Notes under the pieces: model-generated
Databases searched by the model: none
Seen by the model: the letters and a program-made list of their open reading frames with translations, nothing else
What the model was told of the DNA's origin: nothing
Translations under genes and position numbers: made by a program
Source: a virus
Length of the DNA: 60,804 nt
Reading direction: 5' to 3' (one strand)
IMG/VR virus record: IMGVR_UViG_3300036760_000364
Span: 1 to 60,804 of that record
Part shown: positions 610-58,674 of the stretch, one piece after another
Numbering within the stretch: position 1 is the stretch's first letter
Layout of the letters: each line of letters opens with the position of its first letter

Positions 610-1413
610 TTACTGTACTGCCGCTGCTGTCTTCACCTGTTTCTCAGCCCATTTATGAATCTTCTCAAACACAGCCCCAAAGTCCTGTGGCTCATATTGA
701 TTCAGAGCATCCCCAAAAACATGTCCTGCATACAACCTCCCGGTGTTCTGAGTCAACCATACATATTCACTTGGTTGATTCGCTTTCATCTGGCGTGTTC
801 CACTCCTAAAAGCGCACTGAAACATTCCCCCGAGGGCAGTCTTGAGATTCCCCACTACATCCGGCAACATCATCTTGAGTTGGGCTGACTCATTCTCAAC
901 GGTACGTTCGTGGCAATTCAGGATTAAGGTACACGGGAGACTTTTCAACCTCGCAATGAAGTATTGGAAAGAATATCTCTGTGTAGTGAAATCGTTATTT
1001 CCCATGTCTCCGACCTGGGGGATCGTTCCGGGTTTTCCATGCAAGAATAAAACCTGGTTCATAATAAGCTTGAGTAACTCAGTTGTACTGTCAAGAGCAA
1101 TCCAATCAATTTTCCATTCGGGGGTCTTTGTGTCTGAGAACCATACATAACCGGACTTTTTGGTGTTTACAATCATCTGCTCAACTGTATTCTGAGCCTG
1201 CCTGAAAGCAAGAGGAGCTTTGATGTCGATGTCGGTATAGGTGTCGATCATGATGTTACTGCAACCCGTAAGAGGTTGTACCTTGCCATCAAAATCAAAC
1301 ACATATCCCTGTCCAGGAAGTGTACGAAGGGCGGTGGTTTTACCCGTGAAGGGAGCTCCCAGCACTAAAACCTTGATGTTTTGAGTCACTTCGATATCAA
1401 CGGCACTTTTCAT
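610..1413 (-). CDS. Sak4-like / AAA_24 phage ATPase (single-strand annealing recombination)
   Basis: 267 residues. A Walker A motif (GAPFTGKTT, about residues 19-27) and a Walker B-type strand (WIALDST, about 105-112) fit the RecA-like phage nucleotide-binding family (AAA_24), whose best-known member is Sak4. That family works with phage ssDNA-binding proteins in homologous recombination. Context agrees: a Cas4/RecB-like nuclease lies upstream in transcription order and, once the ends are joined, a DUF669-like protein lies three small genes downstream. The start overlaps the end of the pentapeptide gene by 17 bases. Family call is firm; the recombination role is inferred. Confidence 0.8.
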   Translation of the reverse strand: MKSAVDIEVTQNIKVLVLGAPFTGKTTALRTLPGQGYVFDFDGKVQPLTGCSNIMIDTYTDIDIKAPLAFRQAQNTVEQMIVNTKKSGYVWFSDTKTPEWKIDWIALDSTTELLKLIMNQVLFLHGKPGTIPQVGDMGNNDFTTQRYSFQYFIARLKSLPCTLILNCHERTVENESAQLKMMLPDVVGNLKTALGGMFQCAFRSGTRQMKANQPSEYVWLTQNTGRLYAGHVFGDALNQYEPQDFGAVFEKIHKWAEKQVKTAAAVQ

Positions 1414-2155
1414 GTATGCCTTCCTCCGTTTTTGTAAGAGGGTCTAATAATCCCTTGACACCATGCAGGTTAGCCCCACTTAGGTAAGCATCATATAGGT
1501 TGGCCTGATGCAGATTAGCATTGCTCAGGTCTGCTCCACACAGATCGGCTTTGTTTAAGTCGGCCTTGCTTAGATTGGCATTGCTCAGATTAGCATTGCT
1601 CAAGTCAGCATCACACAAATCGACCCTACTCAAGTCAGCATTGCGCAGGTTAGCATTGCTCAAACTAACATTACTCAAGTCGGCATCACTTAAATTAGCA
1701 TCACTCAAGTCAGCATTGCTCAAATCGGCCTTCCACAAGCCGGCCCCACTCAAATCAGCCCTACTTAAATTAGCATTATTCAGGTCGGCCTGGTACAAAT
1801 TAGCTTCGTTCAAATTGGCCCCACATAGATCAACCTTGCTCAGATTAGTATTACTCAGGTCTGCATTGCTCAGATTAGCTACATTCAGATTAGCATCATG
1901 CAAGTCAGCATTACTCAGATCGGCCTTACTCAGATTAGCCCCACGTAGGCAAACATTACGCAGATTAGCCCTGTGCAAGTTAGCGGCGTGGAGATAGGCA
2001 TTACGCAGGGAGGCATTAGCCAGGTCAGCCTCACGCAAATTAACATCGTGTAGGTCGGCCCAGTCCAGGTTAGCCCCACGCAAATCAGCACGTTTCCCTC
2101 CTGGGCTGTTATTGAGCCAAGCTTCATGCCGGGCAAGCACGTCTTTTGTGTTCAT
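1397..2155 (-). CDS. Pentapeptide-repeat protein
   Basis: 252 residues from the chosen ATG. After a short N-terminus (MNTKDVLARHEAWLNN) almost the whole protein is A(D/N)LXX pentapeptides, about 45 in tandem, predicting a right-handed quadrilateral beta-helix. Some such proteins mimic DNA (MfpA/Qnr, which act on gyrase); others are structural. I cannot say which applies. GGAGGAGAA directly precedes this ATG, and the N-terminus is of the type usually seen just before the repeats. A GTG at 2218, overlapping the upstream stop as GTGA, would add 21 residues. A long opposite-strand reading frame here is a by-product of the repeats. Confidence 0.85.
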   Translation of the reverse strand: MNTKDVLARHEAWLNNSPGGKRADLRGANLDWADLHDVNLREADLANASLRNAYLHAANLHRANLRNVCLRGANLSKADLSNADLHDANLNVANLSNADLSNTNLSKVDLCGANLNEANLYQADLNNANLSRADLSGAGLWKADLSNADLSDANLSDADLSNVSLSNANLRNADLSRVDLCDADLSNANLSNANLSKADLNKADLCGADLSNANLHQANLYDAYLSGANLHGVKGLLDPLTKTEEGIHEKCR

Positions 2156-2214
2156 TTCTCCTCCATCTCTTCTGAACTTTAGCCTCCCTTCATTTATCGT
2201 CATCAGCATTGCCT

Positions 2215-2457
2215 TCACTCCCTCCTCTTCATTGGTAACTTACCTTCAGGATCCAAAGACAGGCCAAAATCGGGATTTATACTGTGATATAACCCAATTT
2301 CTCCATTAGGATATATACTCAACAAGCTCCCTAAAGGTAGTCGATCTCCATTTATATCGACTGCTTCTAAGTCAATGTGATTTTTGTATTCTATCAACCT
2401 TAAATACACGTCTTGTTCTTTAGATTTACTAAACCCACCAAAAATACCTTTTATCAC
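2215..2457 (-). CDS. Hypothetical protein (80 aa)
   Basis: Predicted small beta-rich soluble protein. It overlaps the next upstream gene by four bases (ATGA-type coupling), placing it inside a tightly packed operon between the membrane protein and the pentapeptide protein. No family recognised. Confidence 0.65.
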   Translation of the reverse strand: MIKGIFGGFSKSKEQDVYLRLIEYKNHIDLEAVDINGDRLPLGSLLSIYPNGEIGLYHSINPDFGLSLDPEGKLPMKRRE

Positions 2458-43005: not shown

Positions 43006-44256
43006 ATGGCAGATGATTATACAAACAACCCTGAATTAAACTCCTGGGTAAAGCAGTTTACTTCAAATTTTCCAGGCCCGACAAGTAAGCCACTTGTCAA
43101 TGTACCTTCAAGTCAGGGAGCAGTGCCACTGGTAACTTACACACCCGGAACTCCACCTGCAATCACAAAGATCTGGAAACCCGGAGGAGAGAGTGTCGAA
43201 AAAGCCGTTAATGCGGCGAATGCTTATACTAAATATAATGTACCGCCTGTTAGTTCTTCTGGGTATAACGTACCTTCAGTTAGCCCATTCGGATATGATG
43301 TAACACGAGGAATCCTTACCGGCCAGTGGCCTGCACCTGTGCCGCCTGCTATGAGTCCTCCATCACCTACTCCAGTGCCTACCACCTCTTCGTTCCCGCA
43401 GAATTACGCTGGTTATAAAGGAACCGTTACAGATGCAATGATGGCTGAGCGAAATCGGGCAACCGGATGGATTCCCTCAAACATCCCAAGGCCCAACACT
43501 CCTGAATACGCCACATGGTCAGCACAACAGGCCAAAGAAGATGCAAATCGCTGGAATGCGGTTGACCTATCGAGACTTGCAAGAGAACGGGAAGCCGCAA
43601 CAGCTTATGCCCGTCAGGTAATGGAAGCTGCAACTATGGCCGATATACAACACCGTGCCGACGTTGAGAGGTGGGAACGACAACCACATCTTTTTGCAAC
43701 GGAACTTGCTGCCGAGTATGCCGGACGACACCCCTCCTCACTGGCAGTTCCGGCAACAGCAGCATATCAAGCTGCTCTTGGTGGTGAGGAAGCAGCCACC
43801 GTAGCCCGTGCCAAGCTTCCCGGAGAACTGGGGATGAGTGAGGCAGAACTGGGCTACAAAAAATCCGAGATTGAAAAGAACAAAGCCTATGCAGACTGGC
43901 TGACAAAAGGAAGGGTGCAAGCGGCTCAAGCTGAACTTGAGCGCAAGAAACAGGTTCAGGCTGATAGAGCAGCAGCCGCAGAGGAAGCCGCACAGCAGAA
44001 AAGAATTAAAGCATATCAGGATTATGAGAAGAGTTGGGCTTCCGGGGAACATCTCTCAACCGAAAAAATGCTAACCCCGGAACAATGGCTTGCCCGCTAC
44101 GGGGCATTCTATAAACCCACATCTGCCGCTGTACCAAAACGTGGCGGGGATGAAACACTTAGTTCGGCAGCGGGAGCCCCTCCAGGAGCCGTACAGGGAG
44201 TTCAAATGCCCGATGGAACCATGAAATATTGGGATGCCCAAGGAAATGAACTATAA
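43006..44256 (+). CDS. Internal virion protein candidate (416 aa)
   Basis: AAGGAGGATATAGAT precedes the ATG. Pro/Ser-rich first 150 residues, then Ala/Glu/Gln-rich helices (about 150-370) ending in a small beta end (GVQMPDGTMKYWDAQGNEL). Overlaps the next gene start (ATAATG region). Probably ejected with the DNA or part of an internal core, by position before the giant protein. Confidence 0.6.
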   Translation: MADDYTNNPELNSWVKQFTSNFPGPTSKPLVNVPSSQGAVPLVTYTPGTPPAITKIWKPGGESVEKAVNAANAYTKYNVPPVSSSGYNVPSVSPFGYDVTRGILTGQWPAPVPPAMSPPSPTPVPTTSSFPQNYAGYKGTVTDAMMAERNRATGWIPSNIPRPNTPEYATWSAQQAKEDANRWNAVDLSRLAREREAATAYARQVMEAATMADIQHRADVERWERQPHLFATELAAEYAGRHPSSLAVPATAAYQAALGGEEAATVARAKLPGELGMSEAELGYKKSEIEKNKAYADWLTKGRVQAAQAELERKKQVQADRAAAAEEAAQQKRIKAYQDYEKSWASGEHLSTEKMLTPEQWLARYGAFYKPTSAAVPKRGGDETLSSAAGAPPGAVQGVQMPDGTMKYWDAQGNEL

Positions 44257-47200
44257 TGACCTACGATGAAGCTATTCAAGTCGGTGGAAAGCCGATTGAT
44301 ATACAGGCACAAGAAACAATACCCGCCGCACCCGTCGCAAAATTAACCTATGAGGAAGCGATTAAAGCCGGGGGAAAACCTATTCCGGTACAACAACCTC
44401 AAAACATTTATTCCAAATCCGAGGCCCTGCCTCCCGAACAACAAGCCGGGTATCTGTATGAGCAGCCTTTCACAAGACCAAGTGCCGCTGTTCCTGAAAC
44501 AGGTTTATGGGCGGCAGCCAAGGGAGGACTGACACAATCATCTGCGGGGCTCGGATACCGTATTGCTGCCGGAGAGAAAGGAATGCCTGCTCCGTATCAA
44601 CCACAGGGATTTCTTGAGAAACTTGCTATGGGTGCAGGAGAATTAGCCGGTGATATTCCTGCAATGATTGGAGGCGGAGTTGCCGGTTCTGCTGTGCCTA
44701 TTGTAGGAACTACTGCTGGAGCTCTCATGGCTCCCGCTGCAATAAAGGAAACAGAAAAAGCCTATTTAGCTCCTGAAACAACCTCCCTCGGAAAAGCTGC
44801 TAAAGAGGTAGCCATTGCAGGTACAGTTGGTAAATTAATGGAATTCGTAGGCGGAGCAACATTTTTACGTGCCCTCGCACCGGAGTTTCGTCCAATGTAT
44901 CAAGCAGCCGTTAAAGCCGGGGATACCCTGGCAGCAAGAAGCATTATTACGGCTGCTCAGGCAAGTGGAAAGTTTTCGCCTATGATAGCCAAAGCAGTTA
45001 CCCCTGCCGCAGAAATAGCCACAATGGGCACAGCAGAACCCCTCATTCGTGAGGGTAGACTTCCAACCGCAGAGGAACTTGCTTTAACTGCGCTGCCAAT
45101 TACAGGATTGCATATGGCTGGAAAAGTTGGAGGAGCAATTAAATCTGCTGCTGTGCCGGAGGTTAAACCGAAACCGGTTGCCTCAGTTGCTGTTCCGCCA
45201 ATCGAAAAAGGTGGAATGCTTAATGAACCTGCGGTGCGAAAGCAATTTGCTGAAATGGGAATCGAACAACCCACTCCCGGTCTCGCAGAATATGTAACCC
45301 AACGGCCTGAGCTCCATACACCGGAAGTTGTTGCTGAGGCCAACCGGATTAAACAGGATATGTTTGCGCCTCTTAAAGAGGAAAAAGGTGCGATTAGTGT
45401 TGGAAAGCCTGAAACTGAAACACCTCCAATAGACCGCCGTGCGATAGATCGCCTCGATACTCCTAAATCACTTAGAGAACAACTTGATATTGTACGTGAA
45501 AGAATCGAATTCTGGAATAAAGAATTCAAACCAAAGAACGCAGCAGAGGAAATATCTCAAAGAATAGAGATTGAACGGCTTCCTAAAATCGAACAAGAAC
45601 TAACTGACCAACTCAAAGCTGTTGAGGCCTCCAAGGAATTAAAAGACCTGGGAATAGAGCCTCCGCCTGTTTCACCTAAAGAGCCGGTTTCACCAATTGT
45701 TGAAAAGCCCCCTATAGGTGAAACACCTCCTGTCGAGAATCTCCGTCCCGCTATTCAAACTCGCCGAGGGCTTCTTGAGGGGGTCGTTGGCGAAAGTCAC
45801 ATCGATATTCTCAAACGTACAGGCACAAAAGAGTCTCTTGACCACTCAAAGGGGTTCATAACTCCCGATGGGCAATTCCTTAATCGCAAACAGGCAATGG
45901 ATTGGCTTAAGGATAACCAACCTGAAGTCGCAGCGAAACTTAAAGAGCAAGGGGTCAAGGCGCTTCACACCGAGGATTATAATGCAGCGGTTAAAGAAGT
46001 TACCAGAGTCGGTCGTCAAGCCGAACTCAGCCCGCTTTTAGCAAAAAGCTCTGACTCGCTTTTAAGGGCTTACAACCTCAAAGATATTTCTGAAGTTACC
46101 CCGGAAGTTGTAACCAAAATGTCGCAGGATCTGAATCTGCCCGAAAAGGTAATCCAGCAGAATCTCGGACTGCCGTTTTTAAGGTCTGAAGAAGTTCCTA
46201 TAACCAGACCTGAACCTCCAAAGCCTATAGCAGATATTTCTACAACGCCTACTGAAGAAACATTAATCCAACGTTATATAGAAGGTACGTTAGAAATACC
46301 AGAGAAGATAAAACAAAAAGCAACAGAATATATGAAAAAAGGCGGCTATCAGGCTCCATCAAAGATTAGAGAAAGATATGATAATTATATATACAAACAT
46401 TACATACAAAAGATAGCTAGATCTGAATTAGAAACACCGCCGGTTACAGCAGAAGTTCCTCCTGAAACCAAACTCTATGGTGGCGGCCCCTCAACTGAAG
46501 AAATCCTCAAAACAGGAAAGCAATCCGCCGGGGATATTATCGATAAGGCCCGTGAGTTCATCCAAACAGCCAAACGGTCTTTTGGTCATCCCTTTTCTGA
46601 AGTCGAAGCCGCCAAGGGAGCAATGCTTAAACACCATGAAGTAATTCGAGACAGTGCCTGGATGAATAATCTTATAACCAAATGGGGCATTCAACAATAT
46701 GACAAACTGGGTGTTAAGTTAGGAGACAAAGATAAGATTGAAACCCAAACTAATATCCTACTCGCCACTGAAGATCCCGAGCTTAAAGCACAACTTCCCA
46801 GAGAACAACAGACGATGTTAAATCACGCCGAAGAACTCCAAAAATCCATCACCAAGTATGCTGTTGATAATGGCCTGATTACCGCTGAAGTTGCTGCAAA
46901 ACATCCTAACTATATCAAGCACTGGTTAATTGATCCCAAAACCGGAGAGCCGTTTTCGCCCTTTTGGGGGCAATTTTCCAAGAGTGGCCCTTCAATGAAA
47001 GAACGTACCTTTGGAACGTACAAAGAGGCTATGGCCGCTGGATACCAACCGGCTACACTTAATGTAGCAGAGCTTGTTGGTAAAAGCTACCAGGAGGTGC
47101 ATCGTATTGTTGAAACCCGCAAGATGCTTGCCACAATACGCCAGATCGAATCCCCTGTAGGCGGAGAGATGTTGCGCTCTGCCCAGGGAGAACTCAAACC

Positions 47201-48881
47201 AATGCGTATCATGGAACCGTGGTCACGGCTGATTAAACAAAACAAGACCGACGGCTATACCAAATTCGATCATCGGCTGCTTGACTATGCAATTCATTAT
47301 AAAGATCAAGACGGAGTATCACACATTATCGAGGGGCCAGTTGGAGTTCGAAAAGAGTTCCTTCCGTGGGTTAGGGCATATATAGAGAACCCCACATACT
47401 CAAAAGCCGAGCAACTCAATAATATGTTTAAAACCGGTAAGATGACTTCGGGCTTTCATATAATCTCATTGACCGCAAATGGGCTCGCCGGCGGACGTGG
47501 AATAGCTGGAAAGATGCCTATTGAGAACGTCATTCGGGGCCTCAAAGAAGCTGAGGTAATGTCTCCTGAACTGCGGGTACTTAATAAATGTGGGCTGGAT
47601 GCCTTTAAACGTATCAACTATGAAGATATCGGACGCTATCACAACATGCTCTATGGTGGAGGACTTGTCAAGAAAACTATAACCTTCGTACCCCGGGAAA
47701 TGACCGCACTCACTTTTGATGTTGTTCATCGGGGGCTTTCTGTTAGTCTCGGGCTGGATATATTTCGGGATATGAAACAACGTGCCATTAACAGGGTGGA
47801 ACGACCTCTTACCGTGGCAGAAGAAACTGAAATTGGCTATAAAGCAGTTGATATCGTAACCAACATGCTAAGTGGCGGCGATGCTAAATCCAAGATGCTG
47901 CGGGCAACCGAGTGGATGGCAAAATACTGGTATAGCCCAGAAGCAAGACAGAAATGGCAATTTGGTTTGCTCTCCCCTTCCTGGCAACGAGCTCACATCG
48001 CCATAGCCAAGGAAATTCTTAAATCCGTTGCGCATCCAATGGCACTCGAATCGAAATACTATCGTGGCTATGTGTATGGCGCAATAGGTGTTTATGCGGC
48101 GGCAAATCTCTATAATTATTTTATGACACAATACCTGGACGGCGAAGGAAAGTGGATGTTTGAGAACCCTAATCCCTGGGTTGTCAGGATGCCTTGGAAT
48201 AATCCTGATGGGTCAGCAGTCTACGGGCGACTCTTAAAATCTATCTTCGAGATTCCCGAAGCGATTCAAGACTTATCTGGACGTGTTATAGCAAAGGTAA
48301 GCCCGCCTATTGGGGCAGCCCTGCATTATTACAAGGACAGGTTGGCTAAATCGAACACGGAACTTGCAAAGGACTTCGTGAAAGATCTAGCTCTTCCAAT
48401 GGCCGCACAACGCACTGAGGAATGGATGAAAGGTAAAGCTGCTTTACCAACTGCTCTCGCACCGGTTATTGGAGTTCCTATGACTGCCAGTAAAGCCCAC
48501 ACTCCCGCTGAAGTTGCCGCATCTCGTTATATGACGAAAAAATACTCAGGGTTATTTCAGCAAACCAAGGAAAGCGAGCTCCGCAAGAATATTGTGGACT
48601 CATTCAGGCGCAGTCCTTATATTGACATGTTGCCTAAAAAGGAACGAGCGTTTTATGAGACTCTTTCAGAAACTACACGGAGGAGGCTCAGAAATGAAGC
48701 CCAGTTAGGCTACCTGGAAGGTGCAATCTCCCATCTCTCCATCGATGAGGCTTTTGAGGTCTATAAAAAGGCTAACCCCGAAGAACGTCAGAAACTTTTC
48801 AAACACATTCAATCAAGGCTCCGTGACGTACCATCCGACAAGAGAGATGCAGCTATCTTAAAATGGAGGGCATTGCAATAA
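44256..48881 (+). CDS. Giant internal/ejection protein with LPD38-like C-terminus (1541 aa)
   Basis: Two N-terminal copies of a 'TYDEAI-xxGGKPI' segment; a hydrophobic Gly/Ala-zipper region (about 105-175, GELAGDIPAMIGGGVAGSAV and GALMAPAAIKE) that could insert into the host membrane; Pro/Glu-rich linkers; then a large C-terminal helical domain (about 750-1541) with GLLSPSWQRAHIAIAKE and RFYETLSETTRRRLR-type segments, resembling large polyvalent protein domain 38. Phages with this layout use such proteins to form or cross a trans-envelope channel. Confidence 0.7.
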   Translation: MTYDEAIQVGGKPIDIQAQETIPAAPVAKLTYEEAIKAGGKPIPVQQPQNIYSKSEALPPEQQAGYLYEQPFTRPSAAVPETGLWAAAKGGLTQSSAGLGYRIAAGEKGMPAPYQPQGFLEKLAMGAGELAGDIPAMIGGGVAGSAVPIVGTTAGALMAPAAIKETEKAYLAPETTSLGKAAKEVAIAGTVGKLMEFVGGATFLRALAPEFRPMYQAAVKAGDTLAARSIITAAQASGKFSPMIAKAVTPAAEIATMGTAEPLIREGRLPTAEELALTALPITGLHMAGKVGGAIKSAAVPEVKPKPVASVAVPPIEKGGMLNEPAVRKQFAEMGIEQPTPGLAEYVTQRPELHTPEVVAEANRIKQDMFAPLKEEKGAISVGKPETETPPIDRRAIDRLDTPKSLREQLDIVRERIEFWNKEFKPKNAAEEISQRIEIERLPKIEQELTDQLKAVEASKELKDLGIEPPPVSPKEPVSPIVEKPPIGETPPVENLRPAIQTRRGLLEGVVGESHIDILKRTGTKESLDHSKGFITPDGQFLNRKQAMDWLKDNQPEVAAKLKEQGVKALHTEDYNAAVKEVTRVGRQAELSPLLAKSSDSLLRAYNLKDISEVTPEVVTKMSQDLNLPEKVIQQNLGLPFLRSEEVPITRPEPPKPIADISTTPTEETLIQRYIEGTLEIPEKIKQKATEYMKKGGYQAPSKIRERYDNYIYKHYIQKIARSELETPPVTAEVPPETKLYGGGPSTEEILKTGKQSAGDIIDKAREFIQTAKRSFGHPFSEVEAAKGAMLKHHEVIRDSAWMNNLITKWGIQQYDKLGVKLGDKDKIETQTNILLATEDPELKAQLPREQQTMLNHAEELQKSITKYAVDNGLITAEVAAKHPNYIKHWLIDPKTGEPFSPFWGQFSKSGPSMKERTFGTYKEAMAAGYQPATLNVAELVGKSYQEVHRIVETRKMLATIRQIESPVGGEMLRSAQGELKPMRIMEPWSRLIKQNKTDGYTKFDHRLLDYAIHYKDQDGVSHIIEGPVGVRKEFLPWVRAYIENPTYSKAEQLNNMFKTGKMTSGFHIISLTANGLAGGRGIAGKMPIENVIRGLKEAEVMSPELRVLNKCGLDAFKRINYEDIGRYHNMLYGGGLVKKTITFVPREMTALTFDVVHRGLSVSLGLDIFRDMKQRAINRVERPLTVAEETEIGYKAVDIVTNMLSGGDAKSKMLRATEWMAKYWYSPEARQKWQFGLLSPSWQRAHIAIAKEILKSVAHPMALESKYYRGYVYGAIGVYAAANLYNYFMTQYLDGEGKWMFENPNPWVVRMPWNNPDGSAVYGRLLKSIFEIPEAIQDLSGRVIAKVSPPIGAALHYYKDRLAKSNTELAKDFVKDLALPMAAQRTEEWMKGKAALPTALAPVIGVPMTASKAHTPAEVAASRYMTKKYSGLFQQTKESELRKNIVDSFRRSPYIDMLPKKERAFYETLSETTRRRLRNEAQLGYLEGAISHLSIDEAFEVYKKANPEERQKLFKHIQSRLRDVPSDKRDAAILKWRALQ

Positions 48882-50137
48882 TGGCTACTCCGAAAGCATT
48901 ATTTTTTGATTATGGATTATTTCTTGGGATAGCAATGGAGTTTGCAAGGCACGGGATTGATACAGGTTATTATAGTCCCTGGAAAGGTTCAATGCCTACT
49001 GCGGAGAAAGCTCAAATTGGCGAGGGGATTGATGGTATCGATAATGAATGGCAGTTTTTTGATGCCGTCAGGAAACGCAACAAACATGAGGACGTAATTA
49101 TCTTCCCTGATGTCGGAGATGGCGATCTCATTACGCATCTTCGGGAAGATGGTTATAATGTTTTTGGCTCAGGCCATTCGGATATTATCGAAATGAACCG
49201 ACTTCAACTCAAGGAGGTGCTTAAAAAAGTCGGGCTGCCTGTGATACCGTTTAAACATATTATTGGAATCGATGCTCTCGAAAAGCACCTCAAAACCGTC
49301 AATAATAAATACATCAAGACTTCCTATTTCAGGGGCCTGATGGAAACCATGCACCATGATACGTGGGATCACTCCAAGCAGCGTATTGACAAGCTTCGTC
49401 ATGATGCAGGAGCTTTCCAGAATAAAATGGATTTCATTGTTGAGGATCCCGTTGAGGGCATTGAATGGGGAACAGAATGGTTCTGTGCCAAGAAGGGTTT
49501 CTTACCAATGGGTGCAATAGGAATCGAGAACAAGAACACCTGCTACCTTGGAAAACCAATCTCACTTTATGATCTGCCTGCTCCCTTCGGGGAGGTTCAT
49601 GATAACCTGGAAGGGTGGTTTGTTCGGCATGGCTTGCTTGGAGCCTTTAGCACGGAAGTCCTGGTGGATGAGAACCTGACTCCCTGGTTCAATGATGCCA
49701 CACAACGCTTTGGCTCCCCCCCGGATGCCTCTCTTTGTAACCTGTGGGAGAATCTCTCGGACAATATGATAGCAATTGCTAAAGGGGAATCACCACAGCT
49801 AAAAGCAAATGCTAAATATGTGGCTCAGGTATTTTTAAAGTCGGAATGGGCAGTCCAGGAGACCACATATCTTGATTTCCCTGAAGAAAACCTTGGCAGA
49901 TTGTTCTTTCGGAACCTCTGCAAGATGGATGACAGGTATCTTTACGTCCCCCAGGATAAGTCTGACATTGTAGGCTCAGCAGTGGGGCTTGGTAACACTA
50001 TCGAGGAAGCTGAAGCAAATGCTTTCAAAATGGCAGAGACGGTAACGGCAGATGAATTAACATATGCTAAAGATGGATTTGATAAGATACACGAATCCAT
50101 CGAGACAGCTAAATCATTCGGAATGGGGGAATTCTAA
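48881..50137 (+). CDS. PurD-like ATP-grasp ligase
   Basis: 418 residues. Rossmann-like start (MATPKALFFDYGLFLGIAME), then FPDVGDGDLITHLREDGYNV, FGSGHSDIIEMNRLQLKEVL and KVGLPVIPF, which parallel PurD's 'VFGPS-A-LE-SK-F-K-GIPT'. An ATP-grasp acidic motif is visible in VEGIEWGTEWFCAKKG, and a metal-binding end in WFNDATQRFGSPPDA. ATP-grasp enzymes join a carboxylate to an amine via acyl phosphate. It is not a typical purine gene: it stands alone between virion and SpeD-like genes. Substrate unknown. Confidence 0.75.
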   Translation: MATPKALFFDYGLFLGIAMEFARHGIDTGYYSPWKGSMPTAEKAQIGEGIDGIDNEWQFFDAVRKRNKHEDVIIFPDVGDGDLITHLREDGYNVFGSGHSDIIEMNRLQLKEVLKKVGLPVIPFKHIIGIDALEKHLKTVNNKYIKTSYFRGLMETMHHDTWDHSKQRIDKLRHDAGAFQNKMDFIVEDPVEGIEWGTEWFCAKKGFLPMGAIGIENKNTCYLGKPISLYDLPAPFGEVHDNLEGWFVRHGLLGAFSTEVLVDENLTPWFNDATQRFGSPPDASLCNLWENLSDNMIAIAKGESPQLKANAKYVAQVFLKSEWAVQETTYLDFPEENLGRLFFRNLCKMDDRYLYVPQDKSDIVGSAVGLGNTIEEAEANAFKMAETVTADELTYAKDGFDKIHESIETAKSFGMGEF

Positions 50138-50544
50138 TGGCATTGAGTATTCATGTTATTACAATTGATGGAACAGATATGAGATATCCTACTGTCGGGG
50201 ATTATATCGGTACACCTAATGCAAGGGTTGTTATGGTGGCTGAAATGGGGGATTGGAGAAAGGAATTGCTTGTTGCGGTACATGAGATAATTGAACAATC
50301 TCTCTGCTTTGATCGGGGAATTAGCGAAAAAGCCATCACCGCTTTCGATAAACATTTTGAAGCTACCAAGGGGAATACCCATGAGGAACCCGGAAACTAG
50401 CCTGATGCGCCTTACTATAAAGAACATCAATTCGCCACAAAAATCGAGAGGGAACTATGTAAGAAATTGAGATTGTCCTGGAAAGAATATAATGACGCTG
50501 TAAACGAAACTTTCGACAAGGCTTTTTCAAAGGAGGAAACTTAG
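50137..50544 (+). pseudogene. HExxE metallopeptidase-like protein interrupted by in-frame TAG
   Basis: 87 codons (ending THEEPGN) then TAG at 50398-50400, then 47 more codons in the same frame (PDAPYYKEHQFATKIERELC...) to a second TAG at 50544. The layout fits a phage protein with VGDW-x-LLVALHELVE, EEPGDDP-x-APYxxEHxxA-xIER. The HEIIE motif (49-53) may bind zinc. Restoring one sense codon at 88 gives the full 135-residue protein. Either an amber nonsense mutation, a strain variant or programmed readthrough. Coupled to the ATP-grasp gene (TAATGG). Confidence 0.75.
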
Positions 50545-50946
50545 TTGGCCAAAATCGTTAAACCATTTGGGGTGCAGCTTTTGCTCGATTGTTATGAATG
50601 TAGCCATGAGGCTATTGACAATCTGGATATCGGTTATACATTTCTTGAAGAGGCCGTTGAGGTACTGGGAGTCCATAAACAGGCTCCCCCGTATATTTTC
50701 AGAACACCGACAGAGTTTGAAGACAAGGCCGGTTTGAGTGGGGTTGTAATGCTTGTGGAATCATCGATTGTGCTTCATACGCTGTGCGTAAGGGATTATG
50801 TTAGTATAGATTATTATACATGCTCCATCATTGACAGATACAAAAAATCTGCCCTTATTGAACTGGCCCAGGACACCTTCAACCCGACTCATATCGAAAC
50901 GCAATTCCTCAAACGAGGCAGAGCCTATTATGGACAAACCGCTTAA
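50545..50946 (+). CDS. SpeD-like pyruvoyl-dependent decarboxylase
   Basis: 133 residues from TTG with AAAGGAGGAAACTTAG. Matches the S-adenosylmethionine decarboxylase proenzyme: FGVQLLLDCYECS at the start and GLSGVVMLVESSIVLHTL with the cleavage pair Glu72-Ser73, His78 and Cys93 (DYYTCS). Ser-to-His and His-to-Cys distances (5 and 15) equal those of Thermotoga SpeD (S63, H68, C83). Self-cleavage would make a pyruvoyl group. Family members make decarboxylated AdoMet, or agmatine/putrescine in neofunctionalised forms. Substrate here undetermined. Next to an ATP-grasp ligase. Confidence 0.8.
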   Translation: MAKIVKPFGVQLLLDCYECSHEAIDNLDIGYTFLEEAVEVLGVHKQAPPYIFRTPTEFEDKAGLSGVVMLVESSIVLHTLCVRDYVSIDYYTCSIIDRYKKSALIELAQDTFNPTHIETQFLKRGRAYYGQTA

Positions 50947-56268: not shown

Positions 56269-58674
56269 TCATTTCAATTCCCCCCACGACCTTCCTTGTT
56301 TCATATCCACAGGTATTGTATATTCAAGTCCTGTATAGTAAGCCTTTAAGGAAAGGGACATACAATCCTTTACTATTGGTATAACAAACTCGACATGTTC
56401 CATTGGACATTGTAAAAGCAATTGATCGTGTACTTGCAAAAGACTTTGAACTTTATGTGCCAGCAGAGCTTCGTTTCTACTAATCCTCTTAAACGCTGTC
56501 TCTGTTAAATCCGCCACTGTCGATTGGGGAATATGGGCCACCAACTCCTTCAGGCTTTTTCCTGACGGTCTCCCCAGGTAAACCCGTTTTCTGCCAAAAC
56601 AATTCCATACTGTTCGATTTGCAAGGATATCTTTCATAATGCGCTCGTGGAAAGCTCGCAAACCCGGATAATGTGCGAAGTAAGCCTCCTGGAATCTCCT
56701 GGCCTCCTTTTCTAAAATTGCATAGTTAGGGCCGAGTTCCCGTAGCACGGCATCAACTATACCACGTGGGGAAATCCCATAGTCACAGGCGTGACCGATT
56801 CTTTTACCCAGCTGCCGCTCGTCATTGTTAATAACCTCTTTCTCGAAGATTGCCTTGGCGTTTTCAGTGTGGATATCACGTCCTTCCTCGAACACCTGAA
56901 TGAGTCGTACATCTCCCGACTCATAGGCCATCACCCGTACCTCCGCCTGACTGTAATCCGGCCCCAACATCGTGAACCCCTCATCCGCCACAAACAAGTC
57001 CCGAATTGGAACTTTCGTTTTGCGATGGATATTTTGTAGATTCCGGCCCGTTCCCCAAGGGCTACCTGATGACGCAAGCCGCCCTGTCTCAGTCGTACAG
57101 GCAAGAGTTGTACGAATCCGCCCATCGCTATCGCATTTCATACACAGCATCTCGTGGAGCTCTTCAAGTTCCCGAAGGTCGAGAATTATCTGGAGTACGG
57201 GATGATGAGTCTTCGCCTGAAGCTTTAAAAGAGCGTCCTCATCGGTACTCAGCTTTTTTCCGAAGGCGCTTTTGGGTAATTTTAAATGCGTGTAGATGAG
57301 TTCCTTAAGTTGCGCCGGACTCCGGTAGTTAATCCACTTAACGAGACCCTTACAGGCAGGACATTCCTTGACCTTCTTCTTGCCTATCGTTCCAACTCCC
57401 TTGCATTTCTTACATACCCAGGTGTCAGGAATGTACTTATTCAAATCAACAAGCTTTTCAACAATCATATCCTCAACAACTTTCTTTTGCTCACCTTGCT
57501 TCTTTCGGTCGAACTTGATCCCCCGCATTGTCATATCCACGAAGATCGGCACAAGCTCCATCTCAAACTCAAACTGCTTACGAGTACCGGTTAGTGCGAT
57601 TTCAGATTGAAGAGGCTCGATCATTTCAAATACCGAACAGGCATCGAGACAATTATAATGCCATAACTTTTTATAATCCCGAATGCGTTTCCAGTCTTTG
57701 TTCTCATCTTTCCAGAAAGGCCGATCTGTATAAATGGAAGCAAGAGTTCCCAGGTCTTTCGGCATTTCTGACCAGGCCGCATGATGTGCCACCATAGTAT
57801 CAAACCACAGGTTATCTACCGGGAATCCTTTGCGTTGCAACCAACTCATATCGTATTGAAAATTTTGCCCGACTTTTTTAACTTTAGAGTCCATTAAGAG
57901 ATCCTTTAACTCTCCTGTAATCTCTTGATAGTCTCCATTTTGCCAATAAGGTTGGTTGTTTTCATAGAATGGAATGCAGATGGCGGTAGTCTTTGCACAG
58001 GACAAGCCGATGCACAGGATTTGATAATACCGAAAGGTCTCAATATCCACCGATACAATGCCAACCTGACGACATTTCTCGATATAAGCAAGAGCCTGCT
58101 CGATAGTCGGGCGCAGAATAAAATTCTCCGGGGGCAAGATGATTTTGGGGTGTAGGGATTCCCGCTTGGCTTTTCGCAGGTCGAGGATAGCCAGGGGCCT
58201 TGCTTCCCAATTCTGTATAATGCCGCTGGGGTGATACGTCGGAACGCATTTTGCTCCCCACTTCGAGGGAACAATTGAGCCACGCCACTTGCCTATTCCC
58301 TGTAAGCCGGTAATGGCATGAAGAGCAAAACGCCCGAGAGGAACAATGACATTGGGGTTTACGCCCTTAAGCTCCTGTTCAAGATAGGCCCACCACTCCT
58401 GGAGTTCCAAGGTTGGTTTAGTACAAGATTTATCAAGATACATAACGGAGAAGTCGTTCCGAGGAAGCTTGTATCTTACAATATTTGTAATGAATGTGTC
58501 TTCCCGCCGGATTCCCGCACGTTGCAGTTCATTATTTAATTCTCGCCCGGCGGGGCCAACAAAAGGTCTTGGCGTAGGACGATAAGCCATCTCCTCTGCG
58601 CCGGGGGCTTCTCCACAAAAGGCAATCTTTGCGCCCTTTTTTCCCTGGGGTTGAATTTGGATATCGAGGGTCAT
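56269..58674 (-). CDS. polA: Uracil-DNA glycosylase (family 4-like) fused to DNA polymerase I
   Basis: 801 residues. Residues 1-165: UDG-like domain with CGEAPGAEE (20-28), FVGPAGREL (38-46), ITNIVRYKLPRND (62-74) and YHPSG (147-151), but without family 4 iron-sulphur cysteines. Residues 200-355: proofreading exonuclease with D210/E212, N271/D275 and Y340/D344. C421, C424, C438, C441 form a zinc knuckle between exonuclease and polymerase. Polymerase: motif A D573 (GPDYSQAEVR), motif B R620-K624-H628-Y632, motif C H749-D750-Q751. His628 aligns with E. coli Pol I Phe762; Gln751 replaces the usual Glu. Confidence 0.88.
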   Translation of the reverse strand: MTLDIQIQPQGKKGAKIAFCGEAPGAEEMAYRPTPRPFVGPAGRELNNELQRAGIRREDTFITNIVRYKLPRNDFSVMYLDKSCTKPTLELQEWWAYLEQELKGVNPNVIVPLGRFALHAITGLQGIGKWRGSIVPSKWGAKCVPTYHPSGIIQNWEARPLAILDLRKAKRESLHPKIILPPENFILRPTIEQALAYIEKCRQVGIVSVDIETFRYYQILCIGLSCAKTTAICIPFYENNQPYWQNGDYQEITGELKDLLMDSKVKKVGQNFQYDMSWLQRKGFPVDNLWFDTMVAHHAAWSEMPKDLGTLASIYTDRPFWKDENKDWKRIRDYKKLWHYNCLDACSVFEMIEPLQSEIALTGTRKQFEFEMELVPIFVDMTMRGIKFDRKKQGEQKKVVEDMIVEKLVDLNKYIPDTWVCKKCKGVGTIGKKKVKECPACKGLVKWINYRSPAQLKELIYTHLKLPKSAFGKKLSTDEDALLKLQAKTHHPVLQIILDLRELEELHEMLCMKCDSDGRIRTTLACTTETGRLASSGSPWGTGRNLQNIHRKTKVPIRDLFVADEGFTMLGPDYSQAEVRVMAYESGDVRLIQVFEEGRDIHTENAKAIFEKEVINNDERQLGKRIGHACDYGISPRGIVDAVLRELGPNYAILEKEARRFQEAYFAHYPGLRAFHERIMKDILANRTVWNCFGRKRVYLGRPSGKSLKELVAHIPQSTVADLTETAFKRISRNEALLAHKVQSLLQVHDQLLLQCPMEHVEFVIPIVKDCMSLSLKAYYTGLEYTIPVDMKQGRSWGELK

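Follow-up and report, generated by a model that had tools for sequence, protein, structure and literature searches.

The IMG/VR virus record IMGVR_UViG_3300036760_000364, analysed here over its whole length of 60,804 bases (the window) and derived from an uncultured phage, carries at 48881-50946 three consecutive open reading frames (ORFs) on the plus strand, which form one operon and encode a PurD-fold ATP-grasp ligase, an HExxE metalloprotein and a SpeD-like protein of the pyruvoyl-dependent type. The pairing of SpeD with the ligase is real and recurs in many uncultured phages. We propose, at a probability of about 0.4, that these genes represent a phage-specific late biosynthetic cassette, in which a single pathway that makes an amine and forms an amide would operate in late assembly. 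A preliminary description of the window had reported three adjoining, coupled or abutting genes at these coordinates, and this was confirmed except for the extent of the HExxE gene, which is corrected below.

Folds and catalytic residues of the ligase and the SpeD-like protein

The first gene (48881..50137, plus strand, 418 amino acids (aa)) is, by family profile and predicted fold, a PurD-fold ATP-grasp enzyme, in agreement with the preliminary description. The AlphaFold model (predicted local distance difference test (pLDDT) 95.6, predicted template modelling score (pTM) 0.92) matched glycinamide ribonucleotide (GAR) synthetases in a Foldseek comparison with the PDB at E=2.4e-23 and template modelling (TM) scores of 0.72-0.75, with the three-domain ATP-grasp fold present, and the profile of the ligase family matched PurD structure 2yw2 at E=1.8e-30. 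The residues E104, E216, K218 and R276 are invariant in the family. The ligase shares with PurD (PDB 2yw2, 1vkz) the fold over the whole length and the ATP-grasp core, and the acidic residue and the Arg of the metal/phosphate site are kept (fldpTcR vs leFnvR). However, its score of 24.6 bits against NCBIfam purD (TIGR00877) lies below the equivalog cut-off of 288, the PurD signature RFGDPE reads RFGSPP, the GPNTGGMG loop is absent and, unlike PurD, the ligase is virus-borne and adjoins virion genes. GPNTG is retained in some distant HExxE-linked relatives of the ligase.

PurD acts on ribosylamine, and amine-bearing modified bases are present in some phages. A role in nucleotide or DNA-base modification, in which the PurD-like ligase would form a nucleotide-borne amide resembling those of the hypermodified bases of phages, is nevertheless very improbable: the PurD signature is altered, the cassette sits with head genes and not with replication genes, and no member of the thymidylate-synthase family was found in the 25 virus records searched, which argues against the known thymidine hypermodification routes. 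The candidate DNA-modification pathway, being without support in these family searches, was set aside. A further comparison is offered by the R2K ATP-grasp peptide ligases, which are likewise encoded by phages and are predicted to modify proteins (PMC4431377). The window ligase differs from them in matching PurD in both profile and fold searches, and the passages of that source consulted here mention no SpeD partner for R2K.

The third gene of the cassette (50545..50946, plus strand, 133 aa) begins with a TTG start preceded by AGGAGG and encodes a protein matching PF02675 with 59.2 bits (E=5.6e-16), above the curated cut-off of 25. Its Ser73, His78 and Cys93 align at exact spacing with S63, H68 and C83 of the Thermotoga enzyme, which have roles in pyruvoyl formation and catalysis (PMC10407285), and the pyruvoyl-type Ser-His-Cys spacing claimed earlier was thus borne out. 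By contrast, the decarboxylated S-adenosylmethionine (AdoMet) that had been listed among the possible products found no support. The motif HTWPE reads HTLCV in the window, i.e., Trp, Pro and Glu are gone and Cys81 occupies the position of Pro. AdoMet is an unlikely substrate because this Trp-Pro-Glu after His is missing; true AdoMet decarboxylases are stated to share one fully conserved Pro (PMC10407285), which we infer to be the Pro of HTWPE and which is apparently absent here. Moreover, the score of 54.5 against the SAM_DCase_Bsu equivalog did not reach the cut-off of 75.65. Neither the spermidine synthase nor the arginase families were detected in the 35 cassette-bearing virus records searched, which leaves the ligase as the sole partner enzyme observed. 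This negative result argues against decarboxylated AdoMet as the product and against ordinary polyamine synthesis, and spermidine synthesis of that kind was rejected as a candidate.

Phage SpeD homologs which decarboxylate arginine or ornithine are known (SpeDA/SpeDC; PMC9992855, PMC10407285). Compared on the basis of Pfam family and motif residues, the cassette SpeD belongs to the same Pfam family, is phage-borne and keeps Ser, His and Cys in the window, where the Pro of HTWPE is absent (Cys81). It differs from SpeDA/SpeDC in its ATP-grasp ligase partner, in the virus records that carry it, which lack both spermidine synthase and agmatinase, and in the Asp that most of its ligase-linked relatives have in place of His. 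As a separate observation, Microcystis phage MaAM05 (locus L105, MW495066) has two SpeD homologs adjoining spermidine synthase and agmatinase, in a stretch whose gene content looks partly bacterial.

An alignment of 37 ligase-linked SpeD rows, in which the window is counted twice and the row of locus L119 comes from an HExxE record, showed Ser and Cys to be invariant (37/37). The position of the catalytic His is taken by Asp in 28 rows, by Glu in one and by His in eight, the window keeping His, and the residues near the catalytic position differ widely. PF02675 was matched at E<0.01 by 30 of 35 ligase-linked SpeDs. These features, which may point to an unusual substrate, would fit a reversed order of reactions, in which the ligase would begin by linking an amino acid to the carboxylate of a small molecule or protein and SpeD would afterwards decarboxylate the residue so attached, or would employ its pyruvoyl group in some reaction other than the decarboxylation of free amino acids. 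The frequent occurrence of the ligase without SpeD (see below) likewise fits ligation as the core activity and decarboxylation as an add-on. The closest characterised homologs, however, use free arginine, ornithine or AdoMet (PMC10407285), and we regard the reversed order as unlikely.

Recurrence and evolution of the SpeD-ligase pairing

Co-occurrence was examined in three samples. A DNA pattern encoding APYxxEHxxATxIE, a motif of the HExxE family, was used to scan viral contigs and retrieved 103 of them. The ligase was found in 56 of these 103 loci, usually adjoining, and SpeD stood beside the ligase in none; a PF02675 SpeD was present in only one of the 103 other HExxE-bearing virus records, approximately 36 kb from the HExxE gene. 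This sample is biased to HExxE-linked ligases. A first ligase scan of viral contigs with the motif FPDxYxGxLQxxL yielded 71 new loci, 69 of them with the ligase, and among these SpeD was found in 38, HExxE in 15 and all three genes in 4. In a second scan, performed with an alignment of SpeD-linked ligases, 163 viral contigs encoded a relative; the best 80 of these and three genome contigs were taken as loci, of which 76 were newly analysed and 72 were uncut. SpeD lay directly upstream of the ligase in 51 of the 72 uncut loci, with gaps between -17 and +7 nt in 33 of the 51 (nearest possible start codon used) and with frequent overlap of stop and start codons, and all three genes were present in 6. 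The two ligase-based samples overlap, having contigs in common. Apart from the window, seven different contigs hold all three genes side by side, mostly in the order HExxE-SpeD-ligase, as compared to ligase-HExxE-SpeD in the window. The conserved neighbourhood that the preliminary description had named as support for its trio was therefore found, both for the pair (38/69 and 51/72) and for the trio.

Single-protein searches made at first returned no relatives of the window ligase or the HExxE protein, nor did three distinct queries turn up a relative of the ligase among 50,697 phage records. Bradyrhizobium sp. YR681 has, next to a SpeD gene, a ligase with 80% identity to the sequence that served as query for the SpeD-linked ligases. 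The hosts named by genome contigs are this strain, uncultured Rhizobiales and an Acidobacteriaceae metagenome-assembled genome. Intein-like inserts often sit in conserved enzyme sites, and one ligase (locus L169, 1646-4090, plus strand) is split at the FPD motif by such an insert with a LAGLIDADG match.

When SpeD linkage is mapped as a label onto a 102-ligase tree, 5 changes are required, compared to 26 with shuffled labels. The window ligase falls outside the main SpeD-linked clade, and forcing all SpeD-linked ligases including that of the window into one clade was rejected by the approximately unbiased (AU) test (p-AU 0.0016), which was run on a 32-row tree with long branches and with a group named after the first tree was seen. 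The seven distinct SpeDs nearest to that of the window (41-45% identity) all adjoin ligases, and the next relatives, at 27-30% identity, occur in other settings without the ligase. Because the window ligase lies outside the clade, yet the nearest SpeDs adjoin ligases within it, the partnership was either formed anew or retained here while many lineages lost it, and in both cases it seems to be favoured by selection. The link between decarboxylase and ligase drawn in the preliminary description is supported by this recurrence on separate ligase branches.

The same recurrence bears on the possibility that SpeD is a separate auxiliary gene that increases the supply of putrescine or agmatine to the benefit of DNA packaging or translation, with an unrelated ligase and both genes merely late. 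Phage-encoded polyamine enzymes of such kind are established (PMC9992855), and the packaging idea of the preliminary description requires the amine only. Nevertheless, this explanation is quite unlikely, as the coupled adjacency recurs on separate branches and a chance neighbourhood is not expected when SpeD is found in a single one of 103 other HExxE-bearing records. Each cassette enzyme falls within a known superfamily; no description of the SpeD-ligase pairing was found in the open-access literature searched, a coverage excluding the main amidoligase review (Iyer 2009), where an earlier mention is possible.

Genomic setting and proposed reactions

Members of the SpeD-linked clade have the gene for the large terminase subunit approximately 3.5 kb upstream of the cassette and that for the portal approximately 2.2 kb downstream, followed by the major head protein. 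The usual place of the cassette is between terminase and portal, or else after a large late protein. Among the 37 HExxE-linked loci whose contig extended far enough to judge, 34 stand behind a large ORF (500 aa or more). In the window, the terminase (19020), a portal-like adaptor (20768), the major head protein (30143) and more structural genes precede the cassette, and a giant late protein of 1541 aa (44256..48881, plus strand) lies directly upstream. About 85 aa of this protein (about aa 500-600) recur in large upstream ORFs of four other loci (L068, L099, L179, L006), and in three loci (L131, L156, L158) the same part is fused in front of ATP-grasp relatives. The late or virion setting assumed in the preliminary description agrees with these data, both in the window and among the related loci.

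The folds and residues predict two chemistries, pyruvoyl-dependent decarboxylation and the ATP-dependent ligation of a carboxylate to an amine, and their recurrent coupling suggests that the product of one enzyme feeds the other. Following this, we propose that the SpeD-like protein would gain its pyruvoyl group by self-cleavage at Ser73 and would decarboxylate an amino acid (arginine, ornithine or similar, but not AdoMet) to a primary amine, which may be agmatine, putrescine or another. The PurD-fold enzyme would activate a carboxylate with ATP as acyl phosphate and join it to the SpeD-made amine as an amide, and the conjugate, or a protein carrying it, may act in virion assembly or DNA packaging. 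The HExxE metalloprotein would be an optional third component, which more often accompanies the ligase alone.

Several points weigh against the proposed late amide-forming pathway. The substrates and activities of the cassette enzymes, and the order in which the amine is made before ligation, are predictions from sequence and fold, and a virion target is suggested by the late location, which is its sole basis. Asp replaces His in 28 of the 37 ligase-linked SpeD rows, so that processing or decarboxylation may differ. In addition, the ligase can work without SpeD, since many ligases have HExxE instead, or neither partner. A broader reading is rather doubtful; it assumes a phage pathway that is widespread but has no representative among sequenced isolates, in which a pyruvoyl enzyme together with an ATP-grasp ligase places an amine conjugate on the capsid, the portal, an ejected virion protein or the DNA cargo during head assembly. 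Dozens of phage contigs have a conserved two-enzyme unit placed between terminase and portal whose ligase had no relative in the searched set of 50,697 phage records, and this suggests unrecognised covalent chemistry in virion assembly.

The HExxE gene and further features of the window

The start codon of the HExxE gene overlaps the stop codon of the ATP-grasp gene (TAATG). The ORF at 50137-50400 does not cover the whole gene: it stops at an in-frame TAG (50398..50400, plus strand), and the same frame runs on for 47 codons into PDAPYYKEHQFATKIE. In these codons the second half of the HExxE family, which is conserved (APYxxEHxxATxIE), is recognisable, and both halves are found in one open frame in all 103 scanned viral contigs. 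What looks like a gap before SpeD is therefore the end of the HExxE gene, whose full family extent of 135 codons through the TAG covers 50137..50544 on the plus strand; a second in-frame TAG ends it immediately before the TTG start of SpeD, which is in the same frame. With the first TAG read as Q, the window protein shows 30-48% identity to 70 of the 103 relatives, and the interrupted position is variable across the family (D, S, H, E, A, N). The copy in the window is either truncated, the result of an assembly error, or translated through the stop. Genome-wide recoding of TAG was set aside as unlikely, as TAG terminates 11 of the 49 window ORFs checked.

No match of note to the HExxE family was found in Pfam, PHROGs or NCBIfam; the analysis exposes this metalloprotein family alongside the SpeD subfamily with its changed catalytic residue. 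The protein model (pLDDT 95.8) was only weakly similar in fold to SprT and IrrE proteins, with no match below E=0.001. H49, E53, D71, H97 and E104 are invariant among the rows holding the position, whereas E50, the presumed catalytic Glu, is Ala in 4 of 110 members. Relatives with HAxxE in place of HExxE are found at loci L135, L171 and L189. The residue pattern indicates that metal binding would be kept, but peptidase chemistry not strictly.

The HExxE protein might be a SprT/IrrE-like protease or amidase which trims the target or removes the conjugate, and it resembles SprT/IrrE-type minigluzincins in its HExxE/H helix, in the distal His97 and in the weak fold similarity. It differs from them in having Glu and not His as second ligand, in a catalytic Glu that varies while the remaining motif residues stay constant and in the lack of a significant match; taken together with the interrupted window copy, this leaves the protease or amidase role somewhat unlikely. 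The zinc peptidase proposed in the preliminary description is accordingly doubtful.

Apart from the cassette, the window encodes a uracil-DNA glycosylase domain fused before a family A DNA polymerase (56269-58674, minus strand) and a pentapeptide-repeat protein (1397-2218, minus strand).

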